A stretch of 64,000 bases of DNA from Subtercola boreus (GTDB lineage: Bacteria > Actinomycetota > Actinomycetes > Actinomycetales > Microbacteriaceae), in NCBI RefSeq assembly GCF_003399625.1, contig NZ_NBXA01000007.1, forward strand, positions 1-64,000. Direction: 5' to 3'. Under the pieces are notes generated by a model, which saw only the letters and a program-made list of their open reading frames with translations, was not told the origin of the DNA and searched no databases. Shown here in pieces: positions 3,581 to 40,687 of this stretch. The position numbers and the translations under genes were made by a program. Within the stretch, counting starts at the first letter, position 1. Each line of letters opens with the position of its first letter.

Positions 3581-3620
3581 TCTGGCTTCCGCCCTGCGGT
3601 ATGCCCAAGGAGTACTCGGA

Positions 3621-3648
3621 TTCGCCAGTGCCAGAATCGTCGTAAACT
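3621..3648 (+). promoter_or_regulatory. Possible promoter for the phosphatase gene
   Basis: TTCGCC and TAAACT are separated by 16 bp. Transcription would begin near 3655, after the ATG at 3650, which favours the internal start at 3701 for the downstream gene. Confidence 0.35.
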
Positions 3649-3700
3649 TATGGCCGCACCTTTTCATTCTGAGAGGAACCCCGCAATCGCCCACTACACA

Positions 3701-9274: not shown

Positions 9275-9296
9275 TCGTCTCCTCTTTTTCGCCGCA

Positions 9297-9302
9297 AGTC
9301 TA
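9297..9302 (-). promoter_or_regulatory. -10 hexamer for the flippase gene
   Basis: TAGACT on the minus strand lies 22 nt before the GTG start, with a Shine-Dalgarno between. I see no clear -35 element. Confidence 0.4.
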
Positions 9303-9435
9303 CCAGCGGGGTCTTCAGCCCCCGGTCGCCGGGTGGCACCCGAACGGGGGGTGGGTTGGCGGGGGCCGCCGAAAACTGCTTCTAAGCTAGTTGGACTGGC
9401 ACTGGCAGCATCCGATCGATCCGGGGGACCACACG

Positions 9436-16470: not shown

Positions 16471-16555
16471 GACGCTCGATGTACGCCTGATTCACAGGCT
16501 CCCGACCCCCGCGTGCAACACTGTTTCCGGTTGAATGGTGGTGATGGGGGAACGA

Positions 16556-18100: not shown

Positions 18101-19528
18101 ATGCCCAGATCGAGTGTGCGCGAGAAGATGCCCATTCGCGACGTCGGCCTCGCCGCAGCGGCGGTCATCGCCGTGCCGGTCGTCACGATCTTCACGATCT
18201 CTGCGGGCCCCGACGGGCTGGTGACCGTTCTGGTCGTGCTGATGGGTCTCGGTTCCGTTCTGGCCGCCCTCTCCGACAAGCCGGTGCTGATCATCGGTCT
18301 CCTCGTCGGAGCCTCCGCCTGCCAGCGTGCCGTCGGTGCCGTCACGGGGAGTCCGATCGCCCTGTGGCTCGACGACTCCGTTCTGATCGGCATGGCGCTC
18401 TACGTTCTGATCAGGCTCTCGGCCCGAATCAACGGCAAGATCGCGGCGGTGCTGCTGATCTTCGTCGGGTTCCTGCTGTTCGCGTTGGTGCGCTCGACCG
18501 ATTTCTCGGTGGGTCTCTACCAGCTGCGCCAGGTCGCTGTTCCCGCCCTGCTGCTGCTCTTCGGTGTGGTCTTCGACCGCGAGAAGATCAAGAAGGCGTC
18601 TCCGGTCGTTCTCACCTTCATCGCCATCGGTGCTCTCTACGGCGTGCTGGAACTTGCGGGCATCCGTCTGATCGACCCGTCGACCGCCAGTGGGCTGAAC
18701 ACGTTCTCGAGCACGAACATCCGTGAGAACGGTCTTCCTGCGGCCTACCGGTACTTCCTCTCCGACGGCACCGTGCTCTCGCGGGTCGGCGGGCTCATCC
18801 TGAACCCGCCGTCGTTCGGAATCCTCGCGGCGACCGGTTTCATCTGGTTGCGCTTCTCCGACAACCGGCGTGGGCCCGGCTTCGTGATCCTCGGCCTGCT
18901 CTTCGCCGTGATGACCGTCGCCTCCCTGGGTCGCGGCGGCATCGTCGTACTGGGCCTGGCCATCGCCCAGCCGTTCATCACCAAGTACTCCGGCCGACTG
19001 GCCTTCATCCTCGTCGGCGCCGTGATGGGCGTCGTCGCCTACGGCGAGTTCGTGACGCAGGGCCAGAGCGGTCGCCATGCAGAGGGCTTCACCTACGGTC
19101 TGACCTATGCCCTGTCGCATCCGATCGGCGGCGGTTTCGGCCTGGTCGGCAACAGTGTAAACCAGCTCGGTCTCGCGGGCGACGACTCCGGTGCGGGTGA
19201 GAGTCTCGCCGCGATCTTCCTCACCGCCTTCGGCTGGGTGGGCATCCTGTTGCTCGTCTGGCTGCTGCTCCGCGGCATCGGTGCGGGCACGACGATGCCG
19301 GGTGTGGCGCTGACCTCCGCTGTGCTGGTGAGCCTCGTCTCCGAGACGGCCGGTGGTCTGGATGCGGCCGGCCCGCTCTGGATTCTGGGTGGCTTCGCCC
19401 TCGTCGGCGACCAGTCGGTGCGCAAGGTGCTGGCGGGCGTCGTGGGCAGGCGCAAGAAGGAGACCGAGCCGGACGAGCAGTTCCTCGACCCGAAACTCGT
19501 GACTACCAAGGGAAACAGATTCGTATGA
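18101..19528 (+). CDS. Wzy-like polysaccharide polymerase, O-antigen ligase family
   Basis: The 475-residue protein has about eleven hydrophobic helices and one longer extracytoplasmic stretch near residues 200-235 (INPSTASG-like loop followed by GTVLSRVGGLILNPPSFGIL). The later segment ASLGRGGIVVLGLAIAQPF resembles the SRG..L motif of Wzy/WaaL proteins. It should join repeat units outside the membrane using lipid-linked chains. ATG with GAAGGGGGG upstream is a strong start. The last 4 bases overlap the next gene (ATGA), and the C-terminal tail is charged and cytoplasmic. It is the only polymerase candidate in the window. Confidence 0.85.
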   Translation: MPRSSVREKMPIRDVGLAAAAVIAVPVVTIFTISAGPDGLVTVLVVLMGLGSVLAALSDKPVLIIGLLVGASACQRAVGAVTGSPIALWLDDSVLIGMALYVLIRLSARINGKIAAVLLIFVGFLLFALVRSTDFSVGLYQLRQVAVPALLLLFGVVFDREKIKKASPVVLTFIAIGALYGVLELAGIRLIDPSTASGLNTFSSTNIRENGLPAAYRYFLSDGTVLSRVGGLILNPPSFGILAATGFIWLRFSDNRRGPGFVILGLLFAVMTVASLGRGGIVVLGLAIAQPFITKYSGRLAFILVGAVMGVVAYGEFVTQGQSGRHAEGFTYGLTYALSHPIGGGFGLVGNSVNQLGLAGDDSGAGESLAAIFLTAFGWVGILLLVWLLLRGIGAGTTMPGVALTSAVLVSLVSETAGGLDAAGPLWILGGFALVGDQSVRKVLAGVVGRRKKETEPDEQFLDPKLVTTKGNRFV

Positions 19529-20568: not shown

Positions 20569-21912
20569 GTGAAGGTTGCTGTGATTGGGCTCGGATATGT
20601 CGGTTGCGTGACGGCCGCGTGCCTAGCCGACCTCGGCAACCAGGTCATCGGAATCGACCCGGTCGATGTGAAGGTCGCTGCGGTCAACGCCGGCCGCACC
20701 CCGATCGTGGAGCCGGGGCTCGACGAACTCGTCGCCGCCAATCACGCTGCCGGCCGGCTGAGTGCGACGACCGCGATCGAGGCCGTCGACGGCGTGGATG
20801 TCGCGATCGTCTGTGTCGGCACCCCCTCCGCCGAGACGGGTGAGCTCGATCTGCGCTTCGTGCGGGCCGTCGCCACGCAGCTCGGCGAGCGGCTGGCCGC
20901 GCGCACGGAGCCCCTCAGCATTGTGCTTCGCAGCACTGTTCTGCCCGGCACGACGCGCGACGTGTTCATCCCCCTCATCCAGGAGGCCTCGGGCCTCACC
21001 GAGGGCCAGGACTTCTTCGTCACCTTCACGCCCGAGTTCCTGCGCGAGTCGTCGGCGATCAGCGACTTCCAGAACCCGCCGATCACCGTCATCGGTGCGG
21101 AGAACCCGCGCTCGGCGGATGCTCCCTCCGAGCTGATGGGCGCTCTCGGCGTTCCCGTGCAGGTCGTCAAGACCGGCGTGGCCGAGGGCCTCAAGTACGC
21201 CTCGAACGCCTTCCACGCCGTGAAGGTCACCTTCGCCAACGAGATCGCGCGCCTGTGCCAGGCGACCGGGGTCGACGGGCGCGAGGTGATGAGCCTGTTC
21301 GTGCAGGATCGCGACCTGAACGTGAGCGCCAAGTACCTGCGCCCCGGCTTCGCCTTCGGCGGCTCGTGCCTGCCGAAGGACGTCAAGGCGCTGCAGCACC
21401 ACGCCCGTTCGCTCGACGAGTCGGTTCCCCTCATCCAGAGCCTGAACGAGTCGAACGAGTATCACATCGCCCGCATCGTCGACACCGTGCGGTCGTACGG
21501 TGCCAAGTCGGTCGCCCAGATCGGGTTGTCGTTCAAGCCCTCGACCGACGATCTGCGGGAGAGCCCGTACGTCAAGGTCGCCGCCGCCCTGCAGGCGGAA
21601 GGAATCAGCGTGAAGGCCTACGACCCCATCGTGGATGTGCACCGCCTGGTTGGTGCGAACGCCTCGTTCGTGCAGGCCACCCTGCCGAACCTTGACCAGA
21701 TGCTCACGGAGTCGGTGGCTGACTGCCTCGAGGGCGCCGACGTGATTCTGCTCGGTACCAACAACGCCGATGTCTGCGCCGAGGTGCTCGAACACGAGGC
21801 TGTGCCCGTCATCGACCTCTCGGGCATGCTCGCCCTGCGCGTCGAGACCGCGCTCCGCGGCCGTGACGTGCAGCCGGCCGGTGCCCTCGCCTACACGGGA
21901 GCCGCCTGGTGA
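20569..21912 (+). CDS. Nucleotide-sugar 6-dehydrogenase, GDP-mannose type
   Basis: It oxidises the C6 hydroxyl of a nucleotide sugar to a carboxylate in two NAD steps. The N-terminal Rossmann motif is VIGLGYVGCVTAACLA. The catalytic cysteine is Cys267 in FGGSCLPKDVKAL, and SFKPSTDDLRESPYV marks the C-terminal domain. The wording FAFGGSCLPKD is closer to AlgD-like GDP-mannose dehydrogenases than to the second dehydrogenase in this window (26008-27321), which has GFGGGCLPKD. The product would be GDP-mannuronate or a related uronate for an acidic polymer, with substrate choice inferred only. The start is GTG with GAGGGGAAC, and the end overlaps the next gene by 4 bp. Confidence 0.85.
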   Translation: MKVAVIGLGYVGCVTAACLADLGNQVIGIDPVDVKVAAVNAGRTPIVEPGLDELVAANHAAGRLSATTAIEAVDGVDVAIVCVGTPSAETGELDLRFVRAVATQLGERLAARTEPLSIVLRSTVLPGTTRDVFIPLIQEASGLTEGQDFFVTFTPEFLRESSAISDFQNPPITVIGAENPRSADAPSELMGALGVPVQVVKTGVAEGLKYASNAFHAVKVTFANEIARLCQATGVDGREVMSLFVQDRDLNVSAKYLRPGFAFGGSCLPKDVKALQHHARSLDESVPLIQSLNESNEYHIARIVDTVRSYGAKSVAQIGLSFKPSTDDLRESPYVKVAAALQAEGISVKAYDPIVDVHRLVGANASFVQATLPNLDQMLTESVADCLEGADVILLGTNNADVCAEVLEHEAVPVIDLSGMLALRVETALRGRDVQPAGALAYTGAAW

Positions 21913-28874: not shown

Positions 28875-30305
28875 TCAGGTCGCTTCGCGGAGCTTGCTCT
28901 TGCGGGCCTGCCGGGCCTCTTTCGGCGTCGGCGTGTTGTCGTCGTAGCCGTACTCGTAGCCGTACCCGTACCGGCCATAGCCATACGAGTCGGGCCCGCG
29001 GGTCGGCAGCATCGTGATGATGACGCCGGCCACCCCGGAGCCCACGTTCTTCAGCGCGGCGACGGAGCCGCGCACCTGACCGCGGTGCACCTTGCTCGCA
29101 CCGACTACGAGCAGCGCCCCGGCGGTGTGCTTGGCGAGGATCGCGGCGTCGGTCACCGGCAGCAGCGGCGGGGAGTCGAAGAGCACGAAGTCGAAGCGTT
29201 CTTCGAGGGTCTCGATCAGCTGGATCATCGCCGGAGAGCTGAGCAGCTCGCTCGGGTTCGGGGGAACGCGACCCGCGGGCAGCACGAACAGCCCGTTGGC
29301 GCCCCACGGCTGCAGCACCTCGTCGAGTTCGGCCCGGCCCACGAGCACGTCGGTGAGACCCGCGCCTCCCTCGAGCCCGAGGTACTGGGCGACCCGGGGC
29401 TTCCGCAGGTCGGCATCGATCAGCACCACGCGGCTGCCGGCCGTGGCCGTGACGATAGCGAGGTTCGCGGTCGAGGTGCTCTTGCCCTCACCGGGGATCG
29501 AGGAGGTGATGACGAAGCTCCGCCGAGATTCCGGCGTCACGAGGAACTGCAGGTTCGTGCGCAGCGTGCGGAACGACTCGGCCCGCGGGCTCCGCGGGTC
29601 GTCGTGCACGACCAGCGGATGTTCGGCTGTGGAGGCGTCGTAGATGATGCCGCCCAGGATGGGTGCCTCGGCGACCTGCTCGACGTCGTGCTCGTTGCGC
29701 ACGCGGGTGTCGAGGGTCTGCCGCAGCACCGCCGCGACCAGAGCGACGACGAGTCCCACCAGCGCTCCGAGCTCGATGTTCAGAGCGGTGTTGGGCGTCA
29801 CCGGTGCAAGGGGCACCAGGGCATCCTGCAACACCGTGATCTTCACCGGTGAGGCGCTGCCGGTGCCGCCCGGCACGAGCGCGCCGACGGTCTCCTCGAA
29901 GCTGGTCGCCACCTGGTTCGCGATGGCCGCGGCGGCCTCCGGGGAGGGGTCGGTCACGCCGATGTCGACCACGACGGTGTCGGGCGAGGTCGTCGCCGAG
30001 ACGTGCTTGGCGAGCTCGGCCGCGGTCGTGTTCAGTTTCAGCTCGTCGATGACGGGCTGGAGCACCGCCGGAGTGACCACCACATCGGTGTACGACTTCA
30101 CCTGATTCTGCGTGAAGTTGCTGCCCTGCGTCAGGTCGCTGACGGTGCCGCCCGACTGAACGGAGATGAACACCTTCGTCGTGGCCTGGAACGAGGGCGT
30201 TGTCAGGATCGACACCAGGGAGCCGGCGGCGATGCCCAGCAGGATCAGCGCCAGGATCAGCACCCAGCTCTTCCGAAGGATGCGGAGGTAATCGTGAATG
30301 TCCAC
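28875..30305 (-). CDS. Wzz-BY-kinase fusion (Wzc/CpsCD type), copy 1
   Basis: The protein combines a chain-length domain (helices near residues 16-34 and 175-195 flanking an extracytoplasmic loop) with a cytoplasmic tyrosine autokinase. Kinase motifs are Walker A SSIPGEGKSTSTANLA, Walker A' VVLIDADLRKP and Walker B FVLFDSPPLLPVTDA. The tail SYGYGRYGYGYEYGYDD carries many tyrosines for autophosphorylation. It should control polymerisation and export together with a phosphatase. The start is GTG with GAAAGGG. It is the last gene of a five-gene minus-strand operon that also encodes a second such kinase. Two related kinases lie at 32359-33951 and 39266-40687. Confidence 0.92.
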   Translation of the reverse strand: MDIHDYLRILRKSWVLILALILLGIAAGSLVSILTTPSFQATTKVFISVQSGGTVSDLTQGSNFTQNQVKSYTDVVVTPAVLQPVIDELKLNTTAAELAKHVSATTSPDTVVVDIGVTDPSPEAAAAIANQVATSFEETVGALVPGGTGSASPVKITVLQDALVPLAPVTPNTALNIELGALVGLVVALVAAVLRQTLDTRVRNEHDVEQVAEAPILGGIIYDASTAEHPLVVHDDPRSPRAESFRTLRTNLQFLVTPESRRSFVITSSIPGEGKSTSTANLAIVTATAGSRVVLIDADLRKPRVAQYLGLEGGAGLTDVLVGRAELDEVLQPWGANGLFVLPAGRVPPNPSELLSSPAMIQLIETLEERFDFVLFDSPPLLPVTDAAILAKHTAGALLVVGASKVHRGQVRGSVAALKNVGSGVAGVIITMLPTRGPDSYGYGRYGYGYEYGYDDNTPTPKEARQARKSKLREAT

Positions 30306-30380
30306 GGCGGTACCCTTTCAGGCCTCGGACGCGGGGCGGACCCCGGGTCGGCTCGGTCTGACCATGATGTCACACCCGCT

Positions 30381-31301
30381 TCAGCGGAGGGCCCTGGCGA
30401 ACGACTTCGCCGCTCGGGGGATCTCTCTGAGCCCATGGGCCAGTCGCCGACGCCTGGCACGCGCCAAGGCGCGCCGGCCGGGCGGGATGTCGGGGTGGAG
30501 CCCGCGCATCTCGCGCTCCGACGGCACGACGGCGCGGAGGAGGATGCCCGCCTTCGCCCGCCACGGTGCGCTGCCGAGCGCCAGCAGCCAGGCTTCCGTG
30601 TACCCCGCGGTGCCAGCGTTCAGCCTCCACCGGCGGAGCGCTTCGGGGTGTGAGCCGTCGTGCGGGGCGGCGGGGTCGAGGGCGGTGAGCAGGGGCCGCG
30701 CGGTGTCGAGCGCTCCGAGCTGCCGGGCGCACTCGACCAGCGCGCTTGCATCGGCCCCCGGAAAGAGCGCCCGCGTCGCCTCGATCAGAGCCTGCAGGTC
30801 GCCCGGCCGCCGTTCCTTGCGTGGCCGCCGGAGCGCGTGCAGCGCGAGGATCAGCGCGGAGGGCGCGAGACCGGGGAGGTCGACGGCGATGCCGGCCAGG
30901 CTCCACTCGACACGGCCGTTCCAGAGCTGCTCAAAGACCTCGTTCCGGTCGGCCAGGAAGCCTGGCCAGTAGGTGTGCAGGTCGAGGTCGATCGGCCAGT
31001 CGGGGTGGTAGAGCGTGACCGAGTGCGGCTCGAGGAGATGGGGGCTTTCGGGGGTGAAGCGGGAGACCCAGCCGGACTTCTCTGCCGCGGCCCGCAGCGC
31101 GTCGACTCCGCCGGGCTCGACCAGCACATCGATGTCTGACGAGACCTTCGGGGCGCGGAGTTCGAGGTGAGCGGCGCCCGGGCCCTTCAGCAGCAGCACG
31201 CGCACGCCCATCTGCCGGGCGCGATCGGTGATCCACGCAGAACCGACAGCGACGGCATCCGATTGCGTGAGCGTCGTGCGCGGAATCTCGTCGGGGTGCA
31301 T
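30381..31301 (-). CDS. NTP_transf_5-like nucleotidyltransferase
   Basis: The 306 residues match the uncharacterised nucleotidyltransferase family PF14907: RARQMGVRVLLLKGPGAAHLE, then SSDIDVLVEPGG with the D-x-D metal site, WPIDLDLHTYW with a third acid, and a helical C-terminal half (PSALILALHALRRPRKERR). Relatives occur beside PqqD-like proteins and HprK-like kinases in lasso-peptide and exosortase-type loci. Here it follows the PqqD-like gene by 25 bp. The substrate is unknown; addition of a nucleotide to a phosphate or carboxylate on a peptide, protein or sugar is conceivable. The Arg-rich C-terminus may bind membrane or nucleic acid. Confidence 0.75.
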   Translation of the reverse strand: MHPDEIPRTTLTQSDAVAVGSAWITDRARQMGVRVLLLKGPGAAHLELRAPKVSSDIDVLVEPGGVDALRAAAEKSGWVSRFTPESPHLLEPHSVTLYHPDWPIDLDLHTYWPGFLADRNEVFEQLWNGRVEWSLAGIAVDLPGLAPSALILALHALRRPRKERRPGDLQALIEATRALFPGADASALVECARQLGALDTARPLLTALDPAAPHDGSHPEALRRWRLNAGTAGYTEAWLLALGSAPWRAKAGILLRAVVPSEREMRGLHPDIPPGRRALARARRRRLAHGLREIPRAAKSFARALR

Positions 31302-31326
31302 TCTTCGAGTCTACGAAGGGGTGGGT

Positions 31327-31641
31327 CTAGGCGCCGACGGCGGCCGCGCCCGGGCCGGTACGGCGCACCAGCCCGACGGTGACCAGCGAATCCACGAACG
31401 CCACGACATCCGCCTCCAGCTCCGTGGGTGCCCGCCCGTTCTTCTCGGCGAGACCGGCTACGAGCTCGGTCATCGTACCCGGGCGCTCCGAGATCGCCTC
31501 CCAGATCATCCGCCCGCTGCCGGCCAGCTCGACCGGCCGGCAACCGTCGACCTCGAGCGGCAGCAGCAAAACTCGGTCGGGGTGCTCGATCGAGGCGCTC
31601 CGCAGCGCCTCGACGATCGTGTCGGCCGCCATCTCGCTCAC
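31327..31641 (-). CDS. PqqD-like protein (RiPP recognition element fold)
   Basis: The 104 residues have the PqqD pattern: two or three beta strands (DRVLLLPLEVDGCRPVELAG) followed by a winged-helix-like part (SGRMIWEAISERPGTMTELV, then EADVVAFVDSLVTVGLVRR). In PqqD and related proteins this fold binds the leader of a ribosomal peptide precursor and presents it to an enzyme. No PQQ, mycofactocin or lasso biosynthetic genes are in the window. The start is GTG overlapping the stop of the phosphatase gene by 4 bp, so the two proteins are made together. The peptide or protein partner is unknown. Confidence 0.8.
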   Translation of the reverse strand: MSEMAADTIVEALRSASIEHPDRVLLLPLEVDGCRPVELAGSGRMIWEAISERPGTMTELVAGLAEKNGRAPTELEADVVAFVDSLVTVGLVRRTGPGAAAVGA

Positions 31642-32357
31642 GCGCTCAGGCGCCCGGAGTTCCGCGCTTCGGCGACCCAGCCGACGATGTTCAGGGCGAG
31701 GTGCGAGGTGGCCAGGCTGATCTGCCGGCCCACAGCATCGTGCACCTGCTGGCTCTGCCGGTACGGGTCGGTCACGTCGTCCTCCGGCAGCAACTGCGCC
31801 CTGCTCCGGATGCGCGCCAGCTGCTGCACGTGCGGCCGGAGTGAATCGGCGAGGTCGGCCGCGGCGTCGGCGGGGAGCGCGCCCGGCACCTTTGTCAGGA
31901 GGGCGGCCTCGGCCAGGGCCGCGTCGGTCGCCGTCTCGACGAGCTCCACGCCGCCGCTCACCGAGAGGAGCTTCGAGAACTCGGTCAGGGTGAAGGTGCG
32001 CTGCAGGGCCCGGGGGTTCCGCTTGATCACCTCGTCGCGCTGGGCGCGGGTCATCGTCAGAACAAGATCGGCGTCGGCGACCATCGCCGAGCGGAGCTGC
32101 CGGGCGCGGAATTCGCCCGGCTGGCCACGGAAGTGCAGGGAGACGGCGGCGGCGTGCTCCTCCATCGGGGCACCGACCACGGCGCCGAGGCCCGCGCTCG
32201 ACACGGTCGTCGACGCGTGCAGTCCGGCCTCACCGAGACGCGAGCGAAGCAGCTGTTCCGCCAGGGGGGAGCGGCAGATGTTGCCGGTGCACACCATCAG
32301 AACGGTGAAGGGTCGGGCGGGTTCGGACGATCCCCTGTTCGGCATGTGGTGCTCCAT
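31638..32357 (-). CDS. Low-molecular-weight protein tyrosine phosphatase, copy 2
   Basis: The P-loop is LMVCTGNICRSPLAEQ, with the catalytic Cys and Arg intact, and the acid loop is VTDPYRQS. At 239 residues it is longer than classical enzymes. The extra part lies between the P-loop half and the acid loop (LLSVSGGVELVETATDAALA), as in the paralogue at 3701-4282. ATG lies one base after the stop of the upstream BY-kinase gene, giving a classic kinase-phosphatase pair. It should dephosphorylate the Tyr-rich tail of one or more of the three kinases. Confidence 0.9.
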   Translation of the reverse strand: MEHHMPNRGSSEPARPFTVLMVCTGNICRSPLAEQLLRSRLGEAGLHASTTVSSAGLGAVVGAPMEEHAAAVSLHFRGQPGEFRARQLRSAMVADADLVLTMTRAQRDEVIKRNPRALQRTFTLTEFSKLLSVSGGVELVETATDAALAEAALLTKVPGALPADAAADLADSLRPHVQQLARIRSRAQLLPEDDVTDPYRQSQQVHDAVGRQISLATSHLALNIVGWVAEARNSGRLSA

Positions 32358-32358
32358 C

Positions 32359-33951
32359 TCAGCGGGCGGTCGGCTTCACCGGCTGCTCGTCGGGAACGCT
32401 CTCGGCGGTGTTCGGGGCGCTCTCCCTGACCGGGCGGGCGGCGCGGGCGGCACGGCGGGCGTGCGATTTCGGCAGCTCGGCCGGATCCGGAATCTGGTGC
32501 GGCACGTCGACTCCCTCGGGGTTGCCCGTCGAGGAATAGTAGTCGCCTTTGTAGGTGTAGCCGTAGTAGCCGCCCTCGCCGCCCTTCCGCGGAACGCGGT
32601 TCAGAATGACGCCGAGCGTGCGACCCTTCACCTTCTCGATGTTCTGCAGCGACTTGCCGAGCGCGTCGACCGTCGTCTTGCCGACGGAGGCGACGATGAG
32701 GGCGCCGTCGGTGCGGGCGGTGAGAATGGCGGCGTCGGTGACGGGGATGAGTGGTGGGGCATCCACGAGCACGATGGCGTCACGCGCCAGCTCGTTCAGC
32801 AGCGTGAGCATGGCCTTCGAGCCGAGCAGTTCACTGGGGTTCGGCGGGATCGCACCGGCGCCCATCACCTGCAGGCGCCCGGTGTCGCCCCAGGGCTGCA
32901 GAACGTCGTGGATCTCGGCGCGACCCACGAGAACATCGGTCAGGCCGACGCCCGGCAGCAGGTTGAAGGATGTCGCGACCGTCGGCCGGCGAAGGTCGCC
33001 GTCGACCACGACCACCCGCTGCCCCGAGGCGGCGATGGTGATGGCGAGGTTGGCCGTGATGGTCGACTTGCCGTCGCCGGCGAGCGAGCTCGTGACCACG
33101 ATTATGCGCGGCGGGTTGTCCACATCCATGAACTGGAGGTTCGTGCGGAGCTCCCGCATCGCCTCCGAGACGGCGTCGTCGTCGGTGTGCCGGTCGGCGT
33201 AGTTCGTGCTGCTGGTTTCCTCGACGAGACGGTTCTTGTCGGTGAAGTTGCGGTCGAAGGGCACCGTTCCGACGACCGAGAGGCCGAACTCCTTCTCGAC
33301 GCTCGCGACCGAGCGGATGCGACGGTCGAGGGTGTGCCGCACGAAGGCGTAGATGATGCCGATCAGCAGGCCGGCGAGCACTCCGATGATGATGGCGAGC
33401 TTCGTGTTCGGAAAGATCGGCGTGCTCGGCAGCACGGCCGAGTCGAGCGTCTGCAGGTTCACGATGGACCCGCCACCCGGGGTCGTACCGGGAGCGATGG
33501 AGGCGGCGTCGCCCGAGTTCTCGAGGATCTTCACCTGGGAGACCATGCCGGCGATCCAGGTCTCCGCGAGGGAGCGGGCGCCTTCGGGGGTCGAGCCCTG
33601 CGCGGTGATCTGCAGCACGGCGGTGTCGGTCGGGTTGGTGACCGAGATCTTGCTCACGAGCGCCTCGGGGCTGATCGAGAGGCCGAGCTGCTCGATGGCG
33701 TAGGTCGCGACCGCGCGCGACTTGGCCACGTTCAGATAGGACTTGACCCGCGATTTGGCGTAGTTGTCGCCCACGAGGGCCGAGCCGAGATCCTGGCTGA
33801 CGCCGGTCGTGATGATGCCGCTCGCATCTGCGCTGTACACGCGCTGCTGCACGAGGGACCAGCCCGCAGCCGAACCGGCCCCGAGCGCCATGCAGATCAG
33901 GATGGCGATCCAGTGACCCCGCAGAATCCGTACGTAGCCCGACAGATCCAT
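32359..33951 (-). CDS. Wzz-BY-kinase fusion, copy 2
   Basis: The 530-residue protein has the two flanking helices of a chain-length domain (MDLSGYVRILRGHWIAILI at the start, a second near residue 180) and the autokinase domain with SSLAGDGKSTITANLA, VVVDGDLRRP and IVLVDAPPLIPVTDA. The tyrosine cluster GGYYGYTYKGDYYSS is followed by an extra tail of about 60 basic and Pro-rich residues (SHARRAARAARPVR), absent from the other two copies. I chose ATG at 33951 because AGGGGG precedes it and because it aligns with the other kinases; GTG at 33966 is in frame. It is the first gene of the minus-strand operon. Confidence 0.92.
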   Translation of the reverse strand: MDLSGYVRILRGHWIAILICMALGAGSAAGWSLVQQRVYSADASGIITTGVSQDLGSALVGDNYAKSRVKSYLNVAKSRAVATYAIEQLGLSISPEALVSKISVTNPTDTAVLQITAQGSTPEGARSLAETWIAGMVSQVKILENSGDAASIAPGTTPGGGSIVNLQTLDSAVLPSTPIFPNTKLAIIIGVLAGLLIGIIYAFVRHTLDRRIRSVASVEKEFGLSVVGTVPFDRNFTDKNRLVEETSSTNYADRHTDDDAVSEAMRELRTNLQFMDVDNPPRIIVVTSSLAGDGKSTITANLAITIAASGQRVVVVDGDLRRPTVATSFNLLPGVGLTDVLVGRAEIHDVLQPWGDTGRLQVMGAGAIPPNPSELLGSKAMLTLLNELARDAIVLVDAPPLIPVTDAAILTARTDGALIVASVGKTTVDALGKSLQNIEKVKGRTLGVILNRVPRKGGEGGYYGYTYKGDYYSSTGNPEGVDVPHQIPDPAELPKSHARRAARAARPVRESAPNTAESVPDEQPVKPTAR

Positions 33952-34048
33952 GTTTGCCCCCTGCACCGATCACTCCTCCGGAGCCGCGAGTGTAACACGC
34001 AGGGAGGGGGGCAGAGCCGCGGCCTCCCCTGACGGGGTGGTACATTGG

Positions 34049-34065
34049 CCTCCCTGTGAGGGAGG
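34049..34065 (+). promoter_or_regulatory. Hairpin covering the ribosome site of the LuxR-type gene
   Basis: CCTCCC, TGTGA and GGGAGG form a 6-bp hairpin whose 3' arm is the Shine-Dalgarno of the gene at 34072. It could restrict translation. TACATT at 34041-34046 is a possible -10. Confidence 0.4.
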
Positions 34066-34071
34066 GTCACG

Positions 34072-34743
34072 ATGAGCCATGAGCGCACCAAGAGAACGCC
34101 GCGCCGCATCCGGGTGCATGTGGTGCACGAGAGCCGCATGATGGCGGAGGCCATCAGTGTGAAACTCAAGTCGGCTCTGCCCGGTGCATCGGTCGACGGC
34201 TGGACCAAGTCGTGGCACACCTACCTCAACCGGGCGCAGGGCGTGGCCGATGTGGTGCTGCTCGACAACGAACTGGGTGACGGCGGCCCGACGTCCGTGA
34301 AGGTGCGCACTCTCGCCCGGAGCGGAACCGGCATCGTGGTGCTCGGCGGCTCGGAGTACGCGCCGGCGATCCGCCGTGTGCTGGCCGCCGGAGCGCACTC
34401 CTACATGGTGGCCGACGAGGGTTCGACCTCGATCGCCGCCGCGATCGCTGCCGCCTTCCGGGGCGAGACCTACGAGTCGGAGCTGCTCGGCCGCATCCTC
34501 GGTGCCCACGAAGCCACACCGGTGCCCGAACTCACCGCCCGCGAGCTCGAGATCGTCAGCATGTATCTGTCGGGCCCCGGTGCGTCGGTGCCCGAGACGG
34601 CGGAGCGCTTCGGGCTCTCTGCCGAGACGGTGCGCACCCACATCTCCCACGCCAGGCGCAAGTACGCCGGCGACGACCTGACTGCGGTGTCGAAGATGGA
34701 ACTGCGCCGACGCATGATCCGGGACGGCTGGATTTTGGAATAG
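34072..34743 (+). CDS. LuxR-family response regulator with atypical receiver
   Basis: Residues 14-130 look like a receiver domain: VHVVHESRMMAEAISVKL, then VVLLDNELGDGG with a possible phospho-acceptor Asp, and TGIVVLGGSEY. The usual acidic pair at the first strand is replaced by HE and no conserved Lys is obvious, so phosphorylation by a standard kinase is doubtful. Residues 150-215 form a LuxR helix-turn-helix (LTARELEIVSMYLSGPG, ETAERFGLSAETVRTHISHA). It is divergent from the BY-kinase operon, which it probably controls, with about 120 bp of shared intergenic DNA. The first residues are very basic. Confidence 0.82.
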   Translation: MSHERTKRTPRRIRVHVVHESRMMAEAISVKLKSALPGASVDGWTKSWHTYLNRAQGVADVVLLDNELGDGGPTSVKVRTLARSGTGIVVLGGSEYAPAIRRVLAAGAHSYMVADEGSTSIAAAIAAAFRGETYESELLGRILGAHEATPVPELTARELEIVSMYLSGPGASVPETAERFGLSAETVRTHISHARRKYAGDDLTAVSKMELRRRMIRDGWILE

Positions 34744-34794
34744 AGTGACGCCTGAGATCCCTCATCTGTCAAACCCCTGCGACGTGGAGCACTC

Positions 34795-36096
34795 TTGGGC
34801 ACTGTTCTTCTGGGGCTGAACATCGTCAACGCGCCGCTGATCATCACCCTCTCGGTCATCAGCATCGGGCTGGTCGTCTTTCTGCTCGTGCGAGCGCCCA
34901 CTACGCGCTGGGTGCTGACGGCGAGTCTCGGTGCCGTGGGCGGCGCGCTGGCGGGCACCGTCACCATCCTGGTCGCGGTGAACCTGCTCGACCTCTTCGG
35001 TACGCGCCTGAGCCCGATCGTCGAGATCTGGATCGTGCTGACCTTCACCGCCGTCGCCCTGGCGATCGTGAACCTCTGGCGCTCCCGCTGGCGCCGCAAG
35101 GTCGTCGCCCTCGTCGCCGTGCTCGTCTTCGTGCTCACCGGAACCCTTGGGGTGAACGCCGCGTTCGGTCTCAACAAGACGGTCGCGGCCTTCCTCGGGG
35201 TGACCAATGAGAAGCCGCTCGACCTGGGCGGCCGCACGGCCACGCCGACTCCCCAGCCCGACGACGGCACACCGCTCTACACCCGGTGGAGCCCGCCGGC
35301 CGGCATGCCCCAGACGGGCACCCTCGGCACCATCGACCTGCCGAACGCGGCATCCGGTTTCGTCGCGCGAACCGGCCTGGCGTACGTACCGCCGGCGGGG
35401 CTGGTCGCCGATCCGCCCGTGCTGCCGGTGATCATCCAGTTGAACGGCCAGCCCGGAAGCCCGGGCCTCGACGACCCGAAGGTGATTCTCGACGCGCTGG
35501 CGGCCAAGCACAACGGCCTCGGGCCGATCGTGGTGAACCCCGACCAGCTCGGCGATGACTCGAAGGATCCGCTCTGCCTCGACACCTCGATGGGCAACGT
35601 CGAGACGTACATCATGAAAGACGTCGTGCCGTGGGTGAAGGCGCACTTCGCCGTGTCGGCCGACCCGAAGGACTGGACGATCCTCGGCTTCTCCAACGGC
35701 GGCATGTGCGCCTCGTACTTCGGGGCGAAGTACCCGAACGTGTTCGGCAACTTCGTCGACCTCTCGGGTGACGAGCACCAGGGCGTCGACGACCGGTCGA
35801 CCCTCAGCCGCGTCTTCGGCGGCGACCAGCAGGCCTACGAAGCGGTCTGGCCCACCACGATCATGGCCGAGAGCACCTACCCCGATTCGGTGGGCGTCTT
35901 CACGGTCGGCGAGACGGATGGGGAGGCCCAGCCCGGCGTGAAGAAGAACTACGACGCGGCCGTCGCCGCGGGCATCCACGCCAGCTACACCGAGATCGCG
36001 GGCGGTGGGCACGACAACACGGCGCTCGACGGAGGACTCTCGAAGGCCTACGACACCCTCTTTCCCCGCTGGGGTCTCAGCGCGCCGGCCCCATGA
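34795..36096 (+). CDS. Membrane-anchored esterase, antigen 85/esterase D-like
   Basis: The first 135 residues carry four membrane helices (IVNAPLIITLSVISIGLVVF, LGAVGGALAGTVTILVAVNL and two more). A linker with TPTPQPDDG leads to an extracytoplasmic alpha/beta hydrolase. Its nucleophile elbow is GFSNGGM with Ser300, and GGGHDNTALDGGL holds the likely catalytic His. The enzyme could attach or remove acyl groups on the cell surface or polymer. TTG is the start, with GTGGAG nearby. It overlaps the HprK-like gene by 4 bp and so heads a three-gene operon with a kinase and a signal peptidase. Confidence 0.8.
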   Translation: MGTVLLGLNIVNAPLIITLSVISIGLVVFLLVRAPTTRWVLTASLGAVGGALAGTVTILVAVNLLDLFGTRLSPIVEIWIVLTFTAVALAIVNLWRSRWRRKVVALVAVLVFVLTGTLGVNAAFGLNKTVAAFLGVTNEKPLDLGGRTATPTPQPDDGTPLYTRWSPPAGMPQTGTLGTIDLPNAASGFVARTGLAYVPPAGLVADPPVLPVIIQLNGQPGSPGLDDPKVILDALAAKHNGLGPIVVNPDQLGDDSKDPLCLDTSMGNVETYIMKDVVPWVKAHFAVSADPKDWTILGFSNGGMCASYFGAKYPNVFGNFVDLSGDEHQGVDDRSTLSRVFGGDQQAYEAVWPTTIMAESTYPDSVGVFTVGETDGEAQPGVKKNYDAAVAAGIHASYTEIAGGGHDNTALDGGLSKAYDTLFPRWGLSAPAP

Positions 36097-37271
36097 CCCC
36101 CGGTGAAGAGGCGCGGCCTGAGCCTGGCCCCGTGCTCGTCGAACTCGTCGCTCTCGGGGTGGTGCTGACGGTCCGTTTCACGGGCTGCGCCGGGCACGAG
36201 ATCGACGACTTCGTGCTTGCCTGGCAGCGCTGCGGCGCCCGGCGGTGCGAGACCCGGCAGGCGGGGTCGATCGTCATTGACGCGGTGGTGTGGGCGGCCG
36301 GGAACGCCGGGCACGAGGCGGGCGAGCCTGCGGGCACGGTGCCGCCGGCCGCCGAGCGTCTCGCCGCCGGCTCCTTCCGGGAGCTCAGCCATCACCTCTC
36401 CGGCCTGATCACGCGCTCGGCCATCGGCGCCCGGCGCGGTGAGCTCCTGATGCTGCACGCCGGTGCGGTGAGCAGCCGGGAGACCGGCGGGGTCATCGCC
36501 TTCATCGGCCCGTCGGGGCGGGGCAAGACGACCGCATCGACCGCGCTCGGCCGGCACTTCGGCTACGTCACCGACGAGACGGTGGCGATCGCAGACGGTC
36601 TCGCGGTGATCGCCTACCCGAAGCCGCTCTCGGTCAAACTCCCCGAGCCGGAGCCGTGGAAGAGCCAGGTCGCGCCCGGAGAGCTCGGACTCATCGAGCC
36701 GGGGGAGCCGCCGCTCCGGCTGGTCGGGCTCGTGATGCTCGACCGTCGGCCGAGCGGCTCTGCTGCCGTCGCCCGGGTGGCGCTCGCCGAGGCCGTCGAA
36801 GAGCTCGTGCCGCAGATCAGCTTTCTCGCCGAACGTCGCCGTGCGCTCCAGCACTTGGGCTCGGTTGTGGATGCCTGTGGCGGGCTTCATTCCGTGACCT
36901 ACAGTGAGGCGGTCGACCTGCCGGCCGTCTTCGCCGAACTCTTCGAGCAGGCTTCCGGGCGGGCAGCCCTCGCCGAGCAGCCTGTGGGCCCGCACGACGC
37001 CCGGGCGCGCTACCGCTCCATCGTCGACGATGCCCTGCCCGACGGCTCGTCGCTCATCGTGCTGCAGGGCGGAACGGTGAGTGTTCTCGCCGGCATCGCG
37101 CCGGTGCTGGTGACCGAGGCCGCCGGCACCGGTCGCTTCTTCGGCGAGCTGGTCGAGGCTGTGCGGGCTGCGCACGGCGAGCCGCCCGCGGGTGACGCGG
37201 TCGAGGCGGTGGCGAACGCGATCGACGAGCTCGTCGGTGCCGGCCTGCTCGAACGGTCGGATGCGCTGTGA
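36093..37271 (+). CDS. HprK-like kinase fused to a PqqD-like domain
   Basis: Residues 105-290 resemble the HPr kinase/phosphorylase fold: MLHAGAVSSRETGGVIAFIG, Walker A GPSGRGKT at 139-146, and FGYVTDETVAIADG, the conserved acidic strand. Residues 305-392 form a second domain of PqqD type (DGSSLIVLQGGTVSVLAGIA, then VEAVANAIDELVGAGLLER), matching the small protein at 31327-31641 in pattern. In lasso-peptide clusters HprK-like kinases phosphorylate a serine of the peptide; a kinase carrying its own recognition domain would fit such a role. The target here is unknown. It is translationally coupled to the esterase and signal peptidase genes on both sides. Confidence 0.78.
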   Translation: MTPGEEARPEPGPVLVELVALGVVLTVRFTGCAGHEIDDFVLAWQRCGARRCETRQAGSIVIDAVVWAAGNAGHEAGEPAGTVPPAAERLAAGSFRELSHHLSGLITRSAIGARRGELLMLHAGAVSSRETGGVIAFIGPSGRGKTTASTALGRHFGYVTDETVAIADGLAVIAYPKPLSVKLPEPEPWKSQVAPGELGLIEPGEPPLRLVGLVMLDRRPSGSAAVARVALAEAVEELVPQISFLAERRRALQHLGSVVDACGGLHSVTYSEAVDLPAVFAELFEQASGRAALAEQPVGPHDARARYRSIVDDALPDGSSLIVLQGGTVSVLAGIAPVLVTEAAGTGRFFGELVEAVRAAHGEPPAGDAVEAVANAIDELVGAGLLERSDAL

Positions 37272-37972
37272 CCCGCGGGAACACAGCCCGGCCCGGGCGC
37301 CTGAGACGCATCACCGGCAGCGTCTGGTTCAACCTGCTCGCCGCGATCGTGGTGCTCGCGGTCGTGCAGGCGTTCGTCGTCAAGGTCTATTACGTGCCGT
37401 CGGGCTCGATGCAGAACACCCTCGAGATCGGCGACCGGGTGATCGTCGACCGGTTCGGCAGCCACTTCGGTGACCCGAGCGACGGAGACGTGGTCGTCTT
37501 CACTGCATCGGAGCTCTGGGGAGATGTGCCGGCGGCGCCGTCGAACCCGTTTGTCTACGCCGTCAGATGGCTCGGCGGTGTGGTGGGTGTCGGCCCCGAC
37601 CTGACCCACACTCTCGTCAAGCGGGTCATCGCGGGCCCCGGCCAGACGGTCTCGTGCTGCAGCCCCGACGGGCGGGTGCTCGTCGACGGGGTGCCCCAGA
37701 ACGAACCGTACATCTTCGCGGACTACCCGTTCGAAGCCGGTGCGTTCGACTGCAGCACAACACCGAAGTCCCTGCGCTGCTTCGACGAGGTGGTCGTTCC
37801 GGCCGGGCAGTACTTCGTGCTCGGCGACCACCGTTCGAACTCCAACGACTCGATCTTCGCCTGTCGCGGCGGGGGAGGGCCGCCGGGCTGCCTGAAGATG
37901 GTCGGTCGCGACGACATCGTGGGCCGGGCGTTCGCCATCGTGCTGCCGCCCGGGCGCTGGTCGGGACTCTAG
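37268..37972 (+). CDS. Signal peptidase I, S26 family
   Basis: The 234-residue protein has one N-terminal helix (about residues 20-40) followed by the catalytic PSGSM with Ser47 and the general base Lys118 in LVKRVIAGPGQ; LGDHRSNSNDS is the conserved box E. It cuts signal peptides at the outer face of the membrane. Because it is coupled to the HprK-like gene rather than sitting in the usual rplS/rnhB context, it is probably a dedicated peptidase for a protein of this locus. A cysteine-rich insert (VSCCSPDGR, FDCSTTPKSLRCF) is notable. It overlaps the convergent surface-protein gene by 4 bp. Confidence 0.9.
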   Translation: MTRGNTARPGRLRRITGSVWFNLLAAIVVLAVVQAFVVKVYYVPSGSMQNTLEIGDRVIVDRFGSHFGDPSDGDVVVFTASELWGDVPAAPSNPFVYAVRWLGGVVGVGPDLTHTLVKRVIAGPGQTVSCCSPDGRVLVDGVPQNEPYIFADYPFEAGAFDCSTTPKSLRCFDEVVVPAGQYFVLGDHRSNSNDSIFACRGGGGPPGCLKMVGRDDIVGRAFAIVLPPGRWSGL

Positions 37973-39150
37973 AGGCCGGGCAGGCCGAGGTCGAAGCGCA
38001 GCTGCTTGCCGGCGGTCGGAGCGAGCGGCGGCAGGCTCAGGCCATACTGCGGAGCCGCCGTTTCGTCGGGTGCCCCGTGTTCGAACACCTCGAAGCGGTT
38101 CGCGTCCGGAACGGCATCCGGGGCGCTCGCACGACCGACCAGCGACAGCAGGAAATTTCGCACCGGGCCGACGGCGTGGCTGGACTCTGTGCCGATCGGG
38201 GCCAGGCCGAGCGCGAAGCGGTCTGCCGCGGGGGAATCCGATGCACGCCCACGGGCGGCGAAGGGCAGTGCCAGGGCAGAGCCCGCAGCGGCCTGCGCGG
38301 GAGCCGTGGGGGCGAAGCCGAGCGCCAGTGACGGCGCGTCAGCGTTTTGCTGCGGCGCCCGGTCGCTCCAGGGGAAGGTGACGCCTGCCGAACCGTGGCT
38401 GTGCAGACGGTGCGAACCGAAACCCGCGGAACCGAGGAGGCTCTCGCCGGGCCGGTTCTTCGGGTAGCGGATGCGCCTGACGCGCCACCGGGTGAAGAGA
38501 TAGGCGGCGACCCCGCCCAGCAGGAGCAGAGCGGCAATGACCCCGGCGACGGCGAACGGGAAGGCGTCGCGTGCCGTGCTCGCCGAAGCCGGCGGGTAGA
38601 ACGGGAGGTTGATGACGGGAGCGGGCTCCGCGGTCTGCGTCACGACGGGAACCGGAGCGATGGTCGCGGTCTCCGTCGGCGTGGGGGTCGGTGTGACCTC
38701 CTCCTCTTCGACGTAGTCGTCGTCAGAGGTGTCGGACTCCTCGGGGTCGGGCACGAACGTCTCGACGGGCACGGGTACCGGCTCGGCCGACGGCACCGGA
38801 TCGATCGGGATGACGGGCTCGACGGTCGGCTGCGGGTCGACGGTCGGCACCGGATCAGGGTCAGGCACAGATGTGGTCGGCGGGTCGGTCGGCGTCGGCG
38901 GGTCTGTCGGCGTCGGCGGCTCGGTCGACACAGGCGGCTCGGGCTGGTCGGTCGGCACCGGCACCGGCGCGGGAAGCGCGGTGTCGTCCGTGCGCACACC
39001 GAGCGACGCGACGACGGCCGTGCCACTGGTCGAGCTGCTGTTCGCCGCAGAGGCCGCGACAGCACTTCCGAACGTCAGAACGACAAGCAGAAGCAGGGCG
39101 ACCGCGACGGCTGCGGGTGCGCGGAGACTTCTCTGACGGTGCCGATACAT
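37969..39150 (-). CDS. Pro/Thr-rich membrane protein with repeated tail motif
   Basis: Residues 1-35 form a signal peptide or first helix (RAPAAVAVALLLLVVLTFGS). Residues 50-190 are an extended extracytoplasmic stalk of Pro, Thr, Val, Asp and Glu with units such as PTPTDPPTPTDPPT. A second helix (AFPFAVAGVIAALLLLGGVA) is followed by RWRVRRIRY. The roughly 170-residue cytoplasmic tail repeats a motif of the form aromatic-x-L-G-L-x-P (ALGFAPTAP, FALGLAPIG, YGLSLPPLAP, FDLGLPGL). The ATG at 39150 has GGAGG 8 nt upstream. I recognise no family. It converges on the HprK-like/signal peptidase operon and is a candidate substrate of it. Confidence 0.75.
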   Translation of the reverse strand: MYRHRQRSLRAPAAVAVALLLLVVLTFGSAVAASAANSSSTSGTAVVASLGVRTDDTALPAPVPVPTDQPEPPVSTEPPTPTDPPTPTDPPTTSVPDPDPVPTVDPQPTVEPVIPIDPVPSAEPVPVPVETFVPDPEESDTSDDDYVEEEEVTPTPTPTETATIAPVPVVTQTAEPAPVINLPFYPPASASTARDAFPFAVAGVIAALLLLGGVAAYLFTRWRVRRIRYPKNRPGESLLGSAGFGSHRLHSHGSAGVTFPWSDRAPQQNADAPSLALGFAPTAPAQAAAGSALALPFAARGRASDSPAADRFALGLAPIGTESSHAVGPVRNFLLSLVGRASAPDAVPDANRFEVFEHGAPDETAAPQYGLSLPPLAPTAGKQLRFDLGLPGL

Positions 39151-39265
39151 CTGATCATCCTCCCACATGCTGAGCTGTCAATTGGGTGGATGAGTCTGCT
39201 CGAATGTATAGTTTCAACCGATCGGCGGGGAATCGGCCGGCCTGACTGGGAGAGGGCTCTGGCCT

Positions 39266-40687
39266 GTGACATTAGAAGCGTACATTCGGATCATTCGCAA
39301 GGGATGGATCCTGGTCGTCGTTTGCGCTCTCATCGGCATCGGTGCCGGAGCTGCAGCGGCGATCCTGACGACTCCCCAGTACCAGGCGACCACGACGATG
39401 TACGTTTCCGTGCAGACCTCCGACCAGCCGAGCGTCAACGACCTCAGTTCGGGTAACTCGTACGCACTGGCGAAGGTGAAGTCGTACGTCGACATCATCA
39501 CCAGCGCTTCCGTGCTCGACAACGTGGTCTCCGACCTCGATCTCTCGATCACCAGCCGGCAGCTCGCGTCGAAACTCTCGGCCTCGTCGCCGACCGGAAC
39601 GGTCATCATCGAGCTGACCGCCACCGATCCGAACCCGCAGACGGCCGCCAACATCGCGAACGCCACGGCTGACAGCTTCAGCAACTCGGTCATCAACCAG
39701 CTCGAGACCCCCGAGGGCAGCACGGCCAGCCTGGTCAAGGTGCAGGTCGTCGACAAGGCCCTGCCGGCTGCGGCACCGGCCAGCCCGTCAGTTCCGCTCG
39801 ACCTGCTCTTCGGCTTCATTGTCGGCCTCGTCTTCGGCGTCGCCGCCGCCTTCCTCCGCTCGACGCTCGACACCCGTGTTCGCGGCGTGCACGACGTCGC
39901 CGCGGTCTCCGACGCTCCGCTCATCGGTGGCATCAGCTTCGACCCGGAGTCGAACACCCACCCGCTGCTCGTGCACACGGATCCGCGGAACCCGCGCGCA
40001 GAGGCCTTCCGGGCGCTGCGCACCAACCTGCGCTTCGTGAACGCCGGTTCCGACAACCGTGCGTTCGTGGTCACCTCCTCCATCGCCGGTGAGGGTAAGA
40101 GCACCACCTCCGCCAACCTGGCCCTGGCCCTGGCCGAGACCGGCGTGCGCGTCGTGCTGATCGACGGCGACCTGCGGAAGCCCCGCCTGGCCGAGTACAT
40201 GGGTCTCGAGGGTGCCGTCGGCCTCACCGACGTTCTCGTCGGCAGCGTGCCGCTGGCCGACGTGCTGCAGCGCTGGGGCAACCGGGAGCTCTATGTGCTG
40301 CCGGCCGGCCGCATTCCCCCGAACCCGAGCGAGCTGCTCGGCTCCGACGCGATGCAGAACCTCCTGCAGGCGCTGAACGAGCAGGTCGACTACGTTCTCA
40401 TCGACGCGCCGCCTCTGCTGCCCGTCACCGACGGCGCGATCATCTCCAGCATGACGGCCGGTGCGATTCTGGTCGCCGGTTCCGGCAAGGTGAAGAAGAC
40501 CGAGCTCGCCCGTGCGCTGAACTCCCTGACCAGCATCAACAGCAAGGTTGTGGGCGTCGTGCTGACGATGCTGCCGAACAAAGGCCCCGATTCCTACAAC
40601 AACGAGAAGTACGGCTACTACGGCGCAGGCCCCGTCGAGGAGGAGCCGGAAAACGCCCCGGCCCGCCGTCGTCGCGGTCGCAAGTAG
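39266..40687 (+). CDS. Wzz-BY-kinase fusion, copy 3
   Basis: Layout and motifs match the other two copies: LEAYIRIIRKGWILVVVCAL at the first helix, a second helix near residue 180 (LLFGFIVGLVFGVAAAFL), SSIAGEGKSTTSANLA, VVLIDGDLRKP, YVLIDAPPLLPVTDG, and the tyrosine tail SYNNEKYGYYGAG followed by ARRRRGRK. The 473-residue size is like copy 1. It stands alone, divergent from the Pro/Thr-rich protein, without its own phosphatase. It may form mixed complexes with the other two or act at another stage or on another polymer. The GTG start has GAGAGGG before it. Confidence 0.92.
   Translation: MTLEAYIRIIRKGWILVVVCALIGIGAGAAAAILTTPQYQATTTMYVSVQTSDQPSVNDLSSGNSYALAKVKSYVDIITSASVLDNVVSDLDLSITSRQLASKLSASSPTGTVIIELTATDPNPQTAANIANATADSFSNSVINQLETPEGSTASLVKVQVVDKALPAAAPASPSVPLDLLFGFIVGLVFGVAAAFLRSTLDTRVRGVHDVAAVSDAPLIGGISFDPESNTHPLLVHTDPRNPRAEAFRALRTNLRFVNAGSDNRAFVVTSSIAGEGKSTTSANLALALAETGVRVVLIDGDLRKPRLAEYMGLEGAVGLTDVLVGSVPLADVLQRWGNRELYVLPAGRIPPNPSELLGSDAMQNLLQALNEQVDYVLIDAPPLLPVTDGAIISSMTAGAILVAGSGKVKKTELARALNSLTSINSKVVGVVLTMLPNKGPDSYNNEKYGYYGAGPVEEEPENAPARRRRGRK

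Follow-up and report, generated by a model that had tools for sequence, protein, structure and literature searches.

The 64,000-nucleotide stretch of Subtercola boreus DNA analysed here (the window, from a genome of 4.12 Mb that is 98.7% complete) carries a Wzx/Wzy-type exopolysaccharide (EPS) locus in which a tailoring trio is embedded. The trio consists of a PqqD/RRE protein, an HprK-like kinase fused to an RRE of its own, and a PF14907 transferase, called NTP5 below. An initial annotation, made from the letters of the window, had noticed these genes, and they prove to be a real, conserved module. We put at roughly one in two the probability that the trio is an actinobacterial, EPS-linked cousin of the machinery that tailors linear polyphosphorylated peptides (LPPs) and paeninodin, and that it acts on secreted proteins, not on small peptides. 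That the trio enzymes decorate secreted proteins is suggested because related bacteria have them beside secreted proteins with a common start sequence. This leader family, found near the trio in 10 of 18 genomes, is what is new here. Direct support comes from gene content, modelled folds, active-site residues, fusions, co-occurrence and the presence of the leader family near the trio in relatives.

LPPs, which the initial annotation did not name, are the closest known kind. As described in a 2026 paper (PMC13381572), their clusters encode an RRE, an HprK-like kinase, an NTP transferase, a SipW-like signal peptidase and an MsbA-like exporter, and sit inside capsular loci; the lpp cluster studied is from Paenibacillus alginolyticus. 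The RRE binds [Y/W]xxP in the leader and presents the leader to the signal peptidase. LppK phosphorylates core Ser3, 18 residues past the Tyr (Y-16 to S3). The precursors have variable C termini and measure 35-200 residues in all. The same paper restricts LPPs to Bacillota.

The trio and its conservation

The trio and the signal peptidase gene that adjoins it lie in two divergent operons:

30381-31301, minus strand: NTP5, PF14907 nucleotidyltransferase (37.4 bits, cut-off 31.2)
31327-31641, minus strand: stand-alone PqqD/RRE protein (PF05402 38.6 bits, cut-off 23.4)
36093-37271, plus strand: HprK/PEPCK-fold kinase with a C-terminal PqqD/RRE domain at about residues 306-392 (motif, fold, profile comparison)
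37268-37972, plus strand: signal peptidase I, bacterial type (PF10502 120.7 bits; TIGR02227 105.1 bits; Ser-Lys dyad)

The PqqD, PF14907 and signal peptidase I calls of the initial annotation are borne out by these scores. Its HprK-like/PqqD fusion stands on fold, an invariant motif and profile comparison. Support from hidden Markov models is weak for the window's kinase (TIGR04352 17.4 bits, cut-off 200), no Pfam kinase family matches it over cut-off, and its PqqD end goes undetected by Pfam. Residues H122, K145, D161 and E162 are nevertheless invariant in all 20 rows of the alignment. The family model (pLDDT 87.3, pTM 0.84) aligns over residues 9-331 with PEPCK (Z 15.1, 256 residues, 4.2 Å), a member of the superfamily to which HprK belongs; HprK itself is not among the best 50 structural entries listed for the model, which is uninformative either way. 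Profile comparison matches the C-terminal domain to PqqD at 96.5% (E 7e-10), and its homologues exceed the Pfam PqqD cut-off.

The best solved relative of the PqqD family profile is the lasso RRE TbiB1 (E 2.8e-10). In NTP5 the active-site motif KG..S.D-x-D..D-x-D-x-H is intact, with K39, G40, D56, D58, D107 and H109 invariant in 19 of 19 rows. Its model (pLDDT 91.0) matches the folds of the nucleotidyltransferases MenT1 (Z 14.0) and ANT(2'') (Z 12.1) and of the ribitol-phosphate transferase FKRP (Z 8.9); no sequence relative was found in the PDB below E 0.4. The signal peptidase scores only 18.6 bits against the archaeal model TIGR02228, compared with 105.1 against the bacterial one, and Ser-Lys motifs are present in eight of eight such peptidases.

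How often do these genes keep company? Among 199 genomes of the bacterial family the kinase matched in 20, of which two weak matches (G025 and G135, E ~6e-4) were dropped, leaving 18 genomes in 11 genera. Rare co-occurrence elsewhere would have spoken against the module of the initial annotation. Instead, a PF14907 match is present in all 18 (over the Pfam cut-off in 15) and PF05402 in 17, the exception being G070. A broad PF14907 scan, less sensitive in that it missed G090 and G171, gave 28 of the 199 genomes: 16 of the 18 kinase-positive and 12 of the 181 others (Fisher 2.6e-14). In the fetched regions NTP5, PqqD, BY-kinase and tyrosine phosphatase (PTP) genes each lie within 20 kb of the kinase in 15 of 18 genomes, an initiating sugar-phosphate transferase (PGT) in 11 and a signal peptidase in 8; in G171 and G116, NTP5 and PqqD are on different contigs from the kinase. 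Fusions occur as well, kinase-PqqD-PqqD in G060 (second PqqD 45.4 bits) and NTP5-PqqD in G019 (36.2 and 33.8 bits), which ties the parts together. A PqqD domain considered at the NTP5 C-terminus in G070 is unsupported (hhalign 2%). BY-kinases are found in 119 of the 199 genomes, that is, in all 18 with the kinase and in 101 of 181 others (Fisher 5e-5). The trio is thus an extra that EPS loci may or may not carry. In locus L044 (genome G188, positions 8148-9914) the reading frames of kinase and NTP5 are both broken and those of PqqD and signal peptidase open; joint decay or sequencing errors could be responsible.

Kinases from other classes of the phylum lack the C-terminal PqqD, judging by length. 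In 6 of the 11 loci concerned (L082, L083, L086-L089) a PGT, BY-kinase or UGD gene is close by; two of the remaining five loci are on contigs under 6 kb. The Asp-Glu pair is kept in 8 of 10 distant-class kinases (L083-L090) and is Glu-Glu in L081 and Asp-Asp in L082. Read with a looser Walker pattern, the kinases of L048, L079, L084 and L087-L090 have a GK[ST] loop and, after it, SDE or TDE; that of L091 does not. A phylum-wide search with the kinase profile matched 337 of 396 genomes, mostly through short P-loop stretches, and is not used as a count; its best matches outside the family were examined individually. The related-locus search in genome contigs gave at least three loci.

A leader family of secreted proteins

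In other genera, secreted proteins beside the signal peptidase begin with the sequence RRxxxxxxAWxxPxIxxAxAxPxAAAS. A regular expression picked 23 such leader proteins in the loci compared, and a profile was built from 20 of them. With a threshold of 20 bits, the profile detects 22 proteins, spread over 11 of the 27 trio-locus regions (539 kb). It detects none in three control sets: 39 random regions from kinase-positive genomes (780 kb), 40 from kinase-negative genomes (800 kb) and 12 loci that have PF14907 without such a kinase (240 kb). Leader regions are thus 11 of 27 at trio loci and 0 of 91 in the controls (1.82 Mb; Fisher 1.4e-8). Counting four further leader proteins from other families or classes, 18 of 26 have a trio or peptidase gene no more than 2.5 kb away. 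Outside this family, AWxxPxI proteins adjoin kinase or PqqD genes at L080, from a second family of the order, and at L081, L082, L084 and L089, from other classes.

The pattern of conservation within the family is sharp. Both arginines, the tryptophan and the proline are invariant in 22 of 22 leaders (RR-x7-WxxPx[IVM]), and W+5 is always I, V or M. A serine stands at W+17 in 20 of 22, and conservation stops immediately after it. The mature parts, of about 90-513 residues, are mostly unrelated, with only five similar pairs. By eye the signal resembles that of the twin-arginine translocation (Tat) pathway. WxxPx[IV] fits the RRE-binding motif [Y/W]xxPx[L/V/I/F/A], and the W+17 serine lies at about the position of the Ser phosphorylated by the LPP kinase. 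A conserved leader, a serine and a variable remainder is the arrangement of precursors of ribosomally synthesized and post-translationally modified peptides (RiPPs), but with a Tat-like signal.

These observations bear on what the module was first thought to recognise. The initial annotation had it bind a peptide or protein tail and add phosphate or a nucleotide. That one of these is added to some peptide or protein is still our best guess, though the tail is probably not the end concerned. Judging from the relatives, the element that is read resembles an export signal at the N-terminus (WxxPx[IV]), and the residue that is modified appears to be the serine behind it.

Three loci of relatives show the family in different settings. 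In L030 (12897-14913), next to the trio, the genes after that for a signal peptidase look, by eye, TatA-like and probably TatC-like, and two leader proteins flank the group. The leader protein at 6927-8588 of L039 is a member of the choice-of-anchor G family (129.5 bits, cut-off 45). At L037 (1-16400) seven distinct leader proteins occur together, of which one scores weakly (21.7 bits).

Several points weigh against the proposal that the trio acts on these proteins. The motif was recognised only after these loci had been viewed, and 19 of the 22 profile matches are the profile's own seeds, the other three all being in L037; the informative part is therefore the zeros in the control regions. 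No leader protein is present in the window (64 kb, profile search) or in 304 kb of its genus, window included, and 8 of the 18 kinase genomes have none in the regions read. None of 10 leader proteins matched an NCBIfam Tat model over its cut-off. The signal peptidase gene adjoins the kinase gene (within 0.6 kb) in only 7 of 18 genomes. The substrates of LPP kinases and RREs are small precursors rather than Tat proteins, and LppN, the LPP transferase, had no effect in the published expression test (PMC13381572). A looser regular expression matched two proteins in the 39 random regions from kinase-positive genomes, and by eye neither resembles a leader protein. Its six matches in 16 regions from other families or classes include four that look real; those in L048 and L083 are not leader-like in appearance. 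It gave none in kinase-negative and PF14907-only regions; a still looser one gave three matches in kinase-negative random regions and none in the window's genus. Finally, the controls were random regions and PF14907-only loci, so the leader link could be with EPS loci generally. Against this, L095 has the kinase and a leader protein and no BY-kinase, PGT, PTP, LCP or UGD match.

The polymer locus and neighbouring genes

The link to polymer export claimed for the module is supported in the window, where the trio is accompanied by what a BY-kinase (Wzx/Wzy-type) EPS locus should contain: an initiating PGT, a flippase, a BY-kinase/polysaccharide co-polymerase and a PTP. As for a Wzy polymerase, the open reading frame (ORF) at 18101-19528 is membrane-like in appearance and has no Pfam match. 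The locus further encodes glycosyltransferases, a pyruvyl transferase, an acyltransferase and UDP-sugar dehydrogenases. Its landmarks and the remaining genes around the trio are as follows:

4332-5810, plus strand: initiating sugar-phosphate transferase, PGT (PF02397 228.3 bits; start codon uncertain)
7946-9274, minus strand: Wzx-type flippase (PF01943 85.3 bits)
20569-21912, plus strand: UDP-glucose/GDP-mannose dehydrogenase (PF03721 174.4 bits)
28875-30305, minus strand: BYK2, BY-kinase with Wzz domain and Tyr-rich C-terminal tail (PF02706 42.8 bits; TIGR01007 170.8 bits, over cut-off)
31638-32357, minus strand: low-molecular-weight tyrosine phosphatase, LMW-PTP (PF01451 83.5 bits)
32359-33966, minus strand: BYK1, BY-kinase with Wzz domain (PF02706 28.0 and PF13807 28.8 bits, over cut-off; TIGR01007 155.4 bits)
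34072-34743, plus strand: LuxR/NarL-type response regulator (PF00196 27.0 and PF04545 30.8 bits, over cut-off)
34795-36096, plus strand: membrane-anchored esterase (PF00756 29.9 bits)
37969-39168, minus strand: Pro-rich membrane protein whose tail ends FDLGLPGL (alignment with L026 and L027)
39266-40687, plus strand: BYK3, third BY-kinase (PF02706 47.4 bits)

The PGT is the single PF02397 match in the genome. The gene layout is as first described, with two BY-kinases, the PTP and the membrane esterase in divergent operons 105 bp apart. Overlapping genes had also been reported, and four-base overlaps do join PqqD to PTP, esterase to kinase and kinase to peptidase; the gap between NTP5 and PqqD is 25 bp. 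The esterase is limited to the genus among the loci compared, clustering only with genes of L026, L027 and L028. The Pro-rich membrane protein was considered as a general substrate and rejected, being likewise genus-limited among the loci compared (alignment, regular expression); its divergent homologues retain a C-terminal (F/Y)DLGLP(A/G) tail.

Elsewhere in the window, a frame at 3581-4282, upstream of the initiating transferase, carries a second low-molecular-weight phosphatase motif, CSGNICRSPLA (by eye). Two proteins at 14455-18067, inside the EPS locus, have beta-helix matches (PF13229; one over and one below cut-off) and twin-arginine signals without WxxP (by eye). No match suggesting a phage or defence link was found, nor were plasmids.

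Known systems and competing explanations

How close is the trio to systems already described? The window shares with LPP clusters a discrete RRE, an HprK-like kinase, an NTP transferase, a neighbouring signal peptidase I, the lack of a cyclase and the setting in a polysaccharide locus. Its relatives share the [Y/W]xxP leader, a serine 17-18 residues further on and variable C termini. Where it parts from LPPs is in peptidase type, exporter and precursor. The window's peptidase is of the bacterial Ser-Lys type, whereas that of LPPs is of the archaeal SipW type (S-H-D). No full-length MsbA-like exporter is found in the window or in the family's fetched trio-locus regions, the sole match being in L084, from another class. 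The LPP precursor motif YxxPxVLxHQxIxFETxxS has no fit in the window. In addition, the kinase here is fused to an RRE, the leader proteins have a Tat-like signal and long mature parts, and the hosts are Actinobacteriota, not Bacillota.

The relation to paeninodin-type tailoring claimed in the initial annotation is also supported. In pseudomycoidin the C-terminal Ser is the residue phosphorylated by the kinase, and the addition of hexoses to this phospho-Ser requires PsmN (PMC9266682). Lasso tailoring of this kind (PadeK, PsmK, PsmN) resembles our trio in combining an HprK-like kinase bearing a His-Lys-Asp-acid motif with a nucleotidyltransferase and an RRE (PMC9266682). Unlike the lasso kinases' His-Lys-Asp-Asp, however, the motif here is His-Lys-Asp-Glu in 20 of 20. 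The cyclase and B2 genes were rightly reported as missing: at E 0.001 the whole genome has no match to the macrolactam synthetase family PF00733, found in 11 of 14 control genomes, or to the B2 peptidase family PF13471, found in 2 of 14. A lasso peptide is rejected on these grounds. The same bacterial family does hold lasso-like kinases. Eight of the 12 PF14907-positive, kinase-negative genomes have strong matches (at least 99 bits), and in six of the eight (L100-L105) an HprK-like gene adjoins; these six kinases have HGSAV or HASAV, a Walker motif and TDD or ADD, with Asp-Asp instead of Asp-Glu. L104, the only one of the six checked for B2 and cyclase, carries the components of a lasso cluster: B2-like, cyclase-like, PqqD and ABC genes. 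An initiating sugar transferase lies within about 6 kb in three of the six.

Two further systems invite comparison. The titles of the NCBIfam models TIGR04352 and TIGR04353 (HPr-rel-A) pair an HprK-related kinase with a PqqD protein, but the scores here are below both cut-offs (17.4 against 200 and 22 against 35 bits). We found no paper in the open-access literature on the name HPr-rel-A or on the actinobacterial trio system. In PEP-CTERM/exosortase systems, secreted proteins with a common sorting signal are coupled to EPS genes; there the enzymes are unrelated to those of the trio, whose signal is N-terminal.

If the trio does not act on secreted proteins, what else might it do? It may regulate the polymer machinery itself: the RREs would dock on the cytosolic tails of BY-kinases or on the PGT, and the kinase and NTP5 would phosphorylate or nucleotidylate them, setting polymer length or amount. 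The interleaved operon in the window favours this, as do the closeness of BY-kinase and PTP genes to the kinase (20 kb or less in 15 of 18 genomes) and the BY-kinase association noted above (18 of 18 against 101 of 181). We consider it unlikely, however: 101 family genomes have BY-kinases without a strong kinase match, and the leader family is left unexplained. BY-kinase tails and PGT N-termini were rejected as RRE targets because by eye they have no common RRE-like motif; the tails have common Tyr clusters, and the PGT N-termini show no such motif at all.

It is quite unlikely, in our estimate, that the product is a small-peptide RiPP of LPP or lasso type whose precursor gene was missed, with the polymer genes only supplying sugar nucleotides. 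The enzyme families are those of LPPs and paeninodin (PMC13381572, PMC9266682), and LPP clusters too lie in capsular loci; but the genome has no cyclase or B2, no full-length exporter accompanies the trio in the regions already given, and an LPP-like motif fits only 2 of 7569 ORFs, neither in the window. Small intergenic frames compared between genomes (E <1e-4) gave no clear precursor by eye. Four of six sets yielded 9, 14, 0 and 2 pairs, and the sets L043/L094 and L046/L048 yielded 0 and 1 rows; the matching frames were tRNA, TatA-like, metallophosphatase-like and CopC-like stretches or antisense or low-complexity frames. Very unlikely, finally, is a role in decorating the glycan, with the kinase acting on a small molecule, NTP5 adding a phospho-substituent to the polymer as FKRP/LicD does, and the PqqD domains serving as scaffolds. 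The genes do sit in a polymer locus and the NTP5 model does match FKRP. Yet its best folds are the nucleotidyltransferases MenT1 and ANT(2''), systems usually have two PqqD/RRE domains, in places fused to both enzymes, and here again the leader family is left unexplained.

Under the proposal that secreted proteins are the substrates, modification would proceed in five steps, of which we infer every binding and catalytic event as well as the coupling to the polymer. In the cytoplasm the PqqD/RRE domain would bind WxxPx[IV] within the Tat-like signal peptide. The kinase would phosphorylate the serine after the AAA site (W+17), and NTP5 would cap the phosphate with a nucleotide or sugar. The protein would then be exported and its leader removed by the signal peptidase, in some genera the adjoining bacterial-type enzyme. 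Lastly, the modified N-terminus would join the protein to the polymer of the same locus, or match it with that polymer. Position and motif statistics are what suggest that the RREs guide modification through the export signal.

We offer only tentatively, as a possibility with the odds somewhat against it, the fullest form of the proposal: a new protein-modification and sorting system, present in several classes of Actinobacteriota, in which RREs read WxxPx[IV] in a Tat-type signal, the N-terminal Ser of full-size secreted proteins is phosphorylated and capped before export, and the proteins are tied covalently or functionally to EPS. The 2026 paper leaves unexplained both what role LPPs and paeninodins play in biology and why they are linked to capsule loci (PMC13381572). 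If the proposal is true, RiPP-type modification would extend to secreted proteins of the ordinary kind, and the capsule link would have a testable explanation: a phospho-linked protein-polysaccharide junction or a sorting code. The leader motif supplies candidate substrates and a single residue to test.

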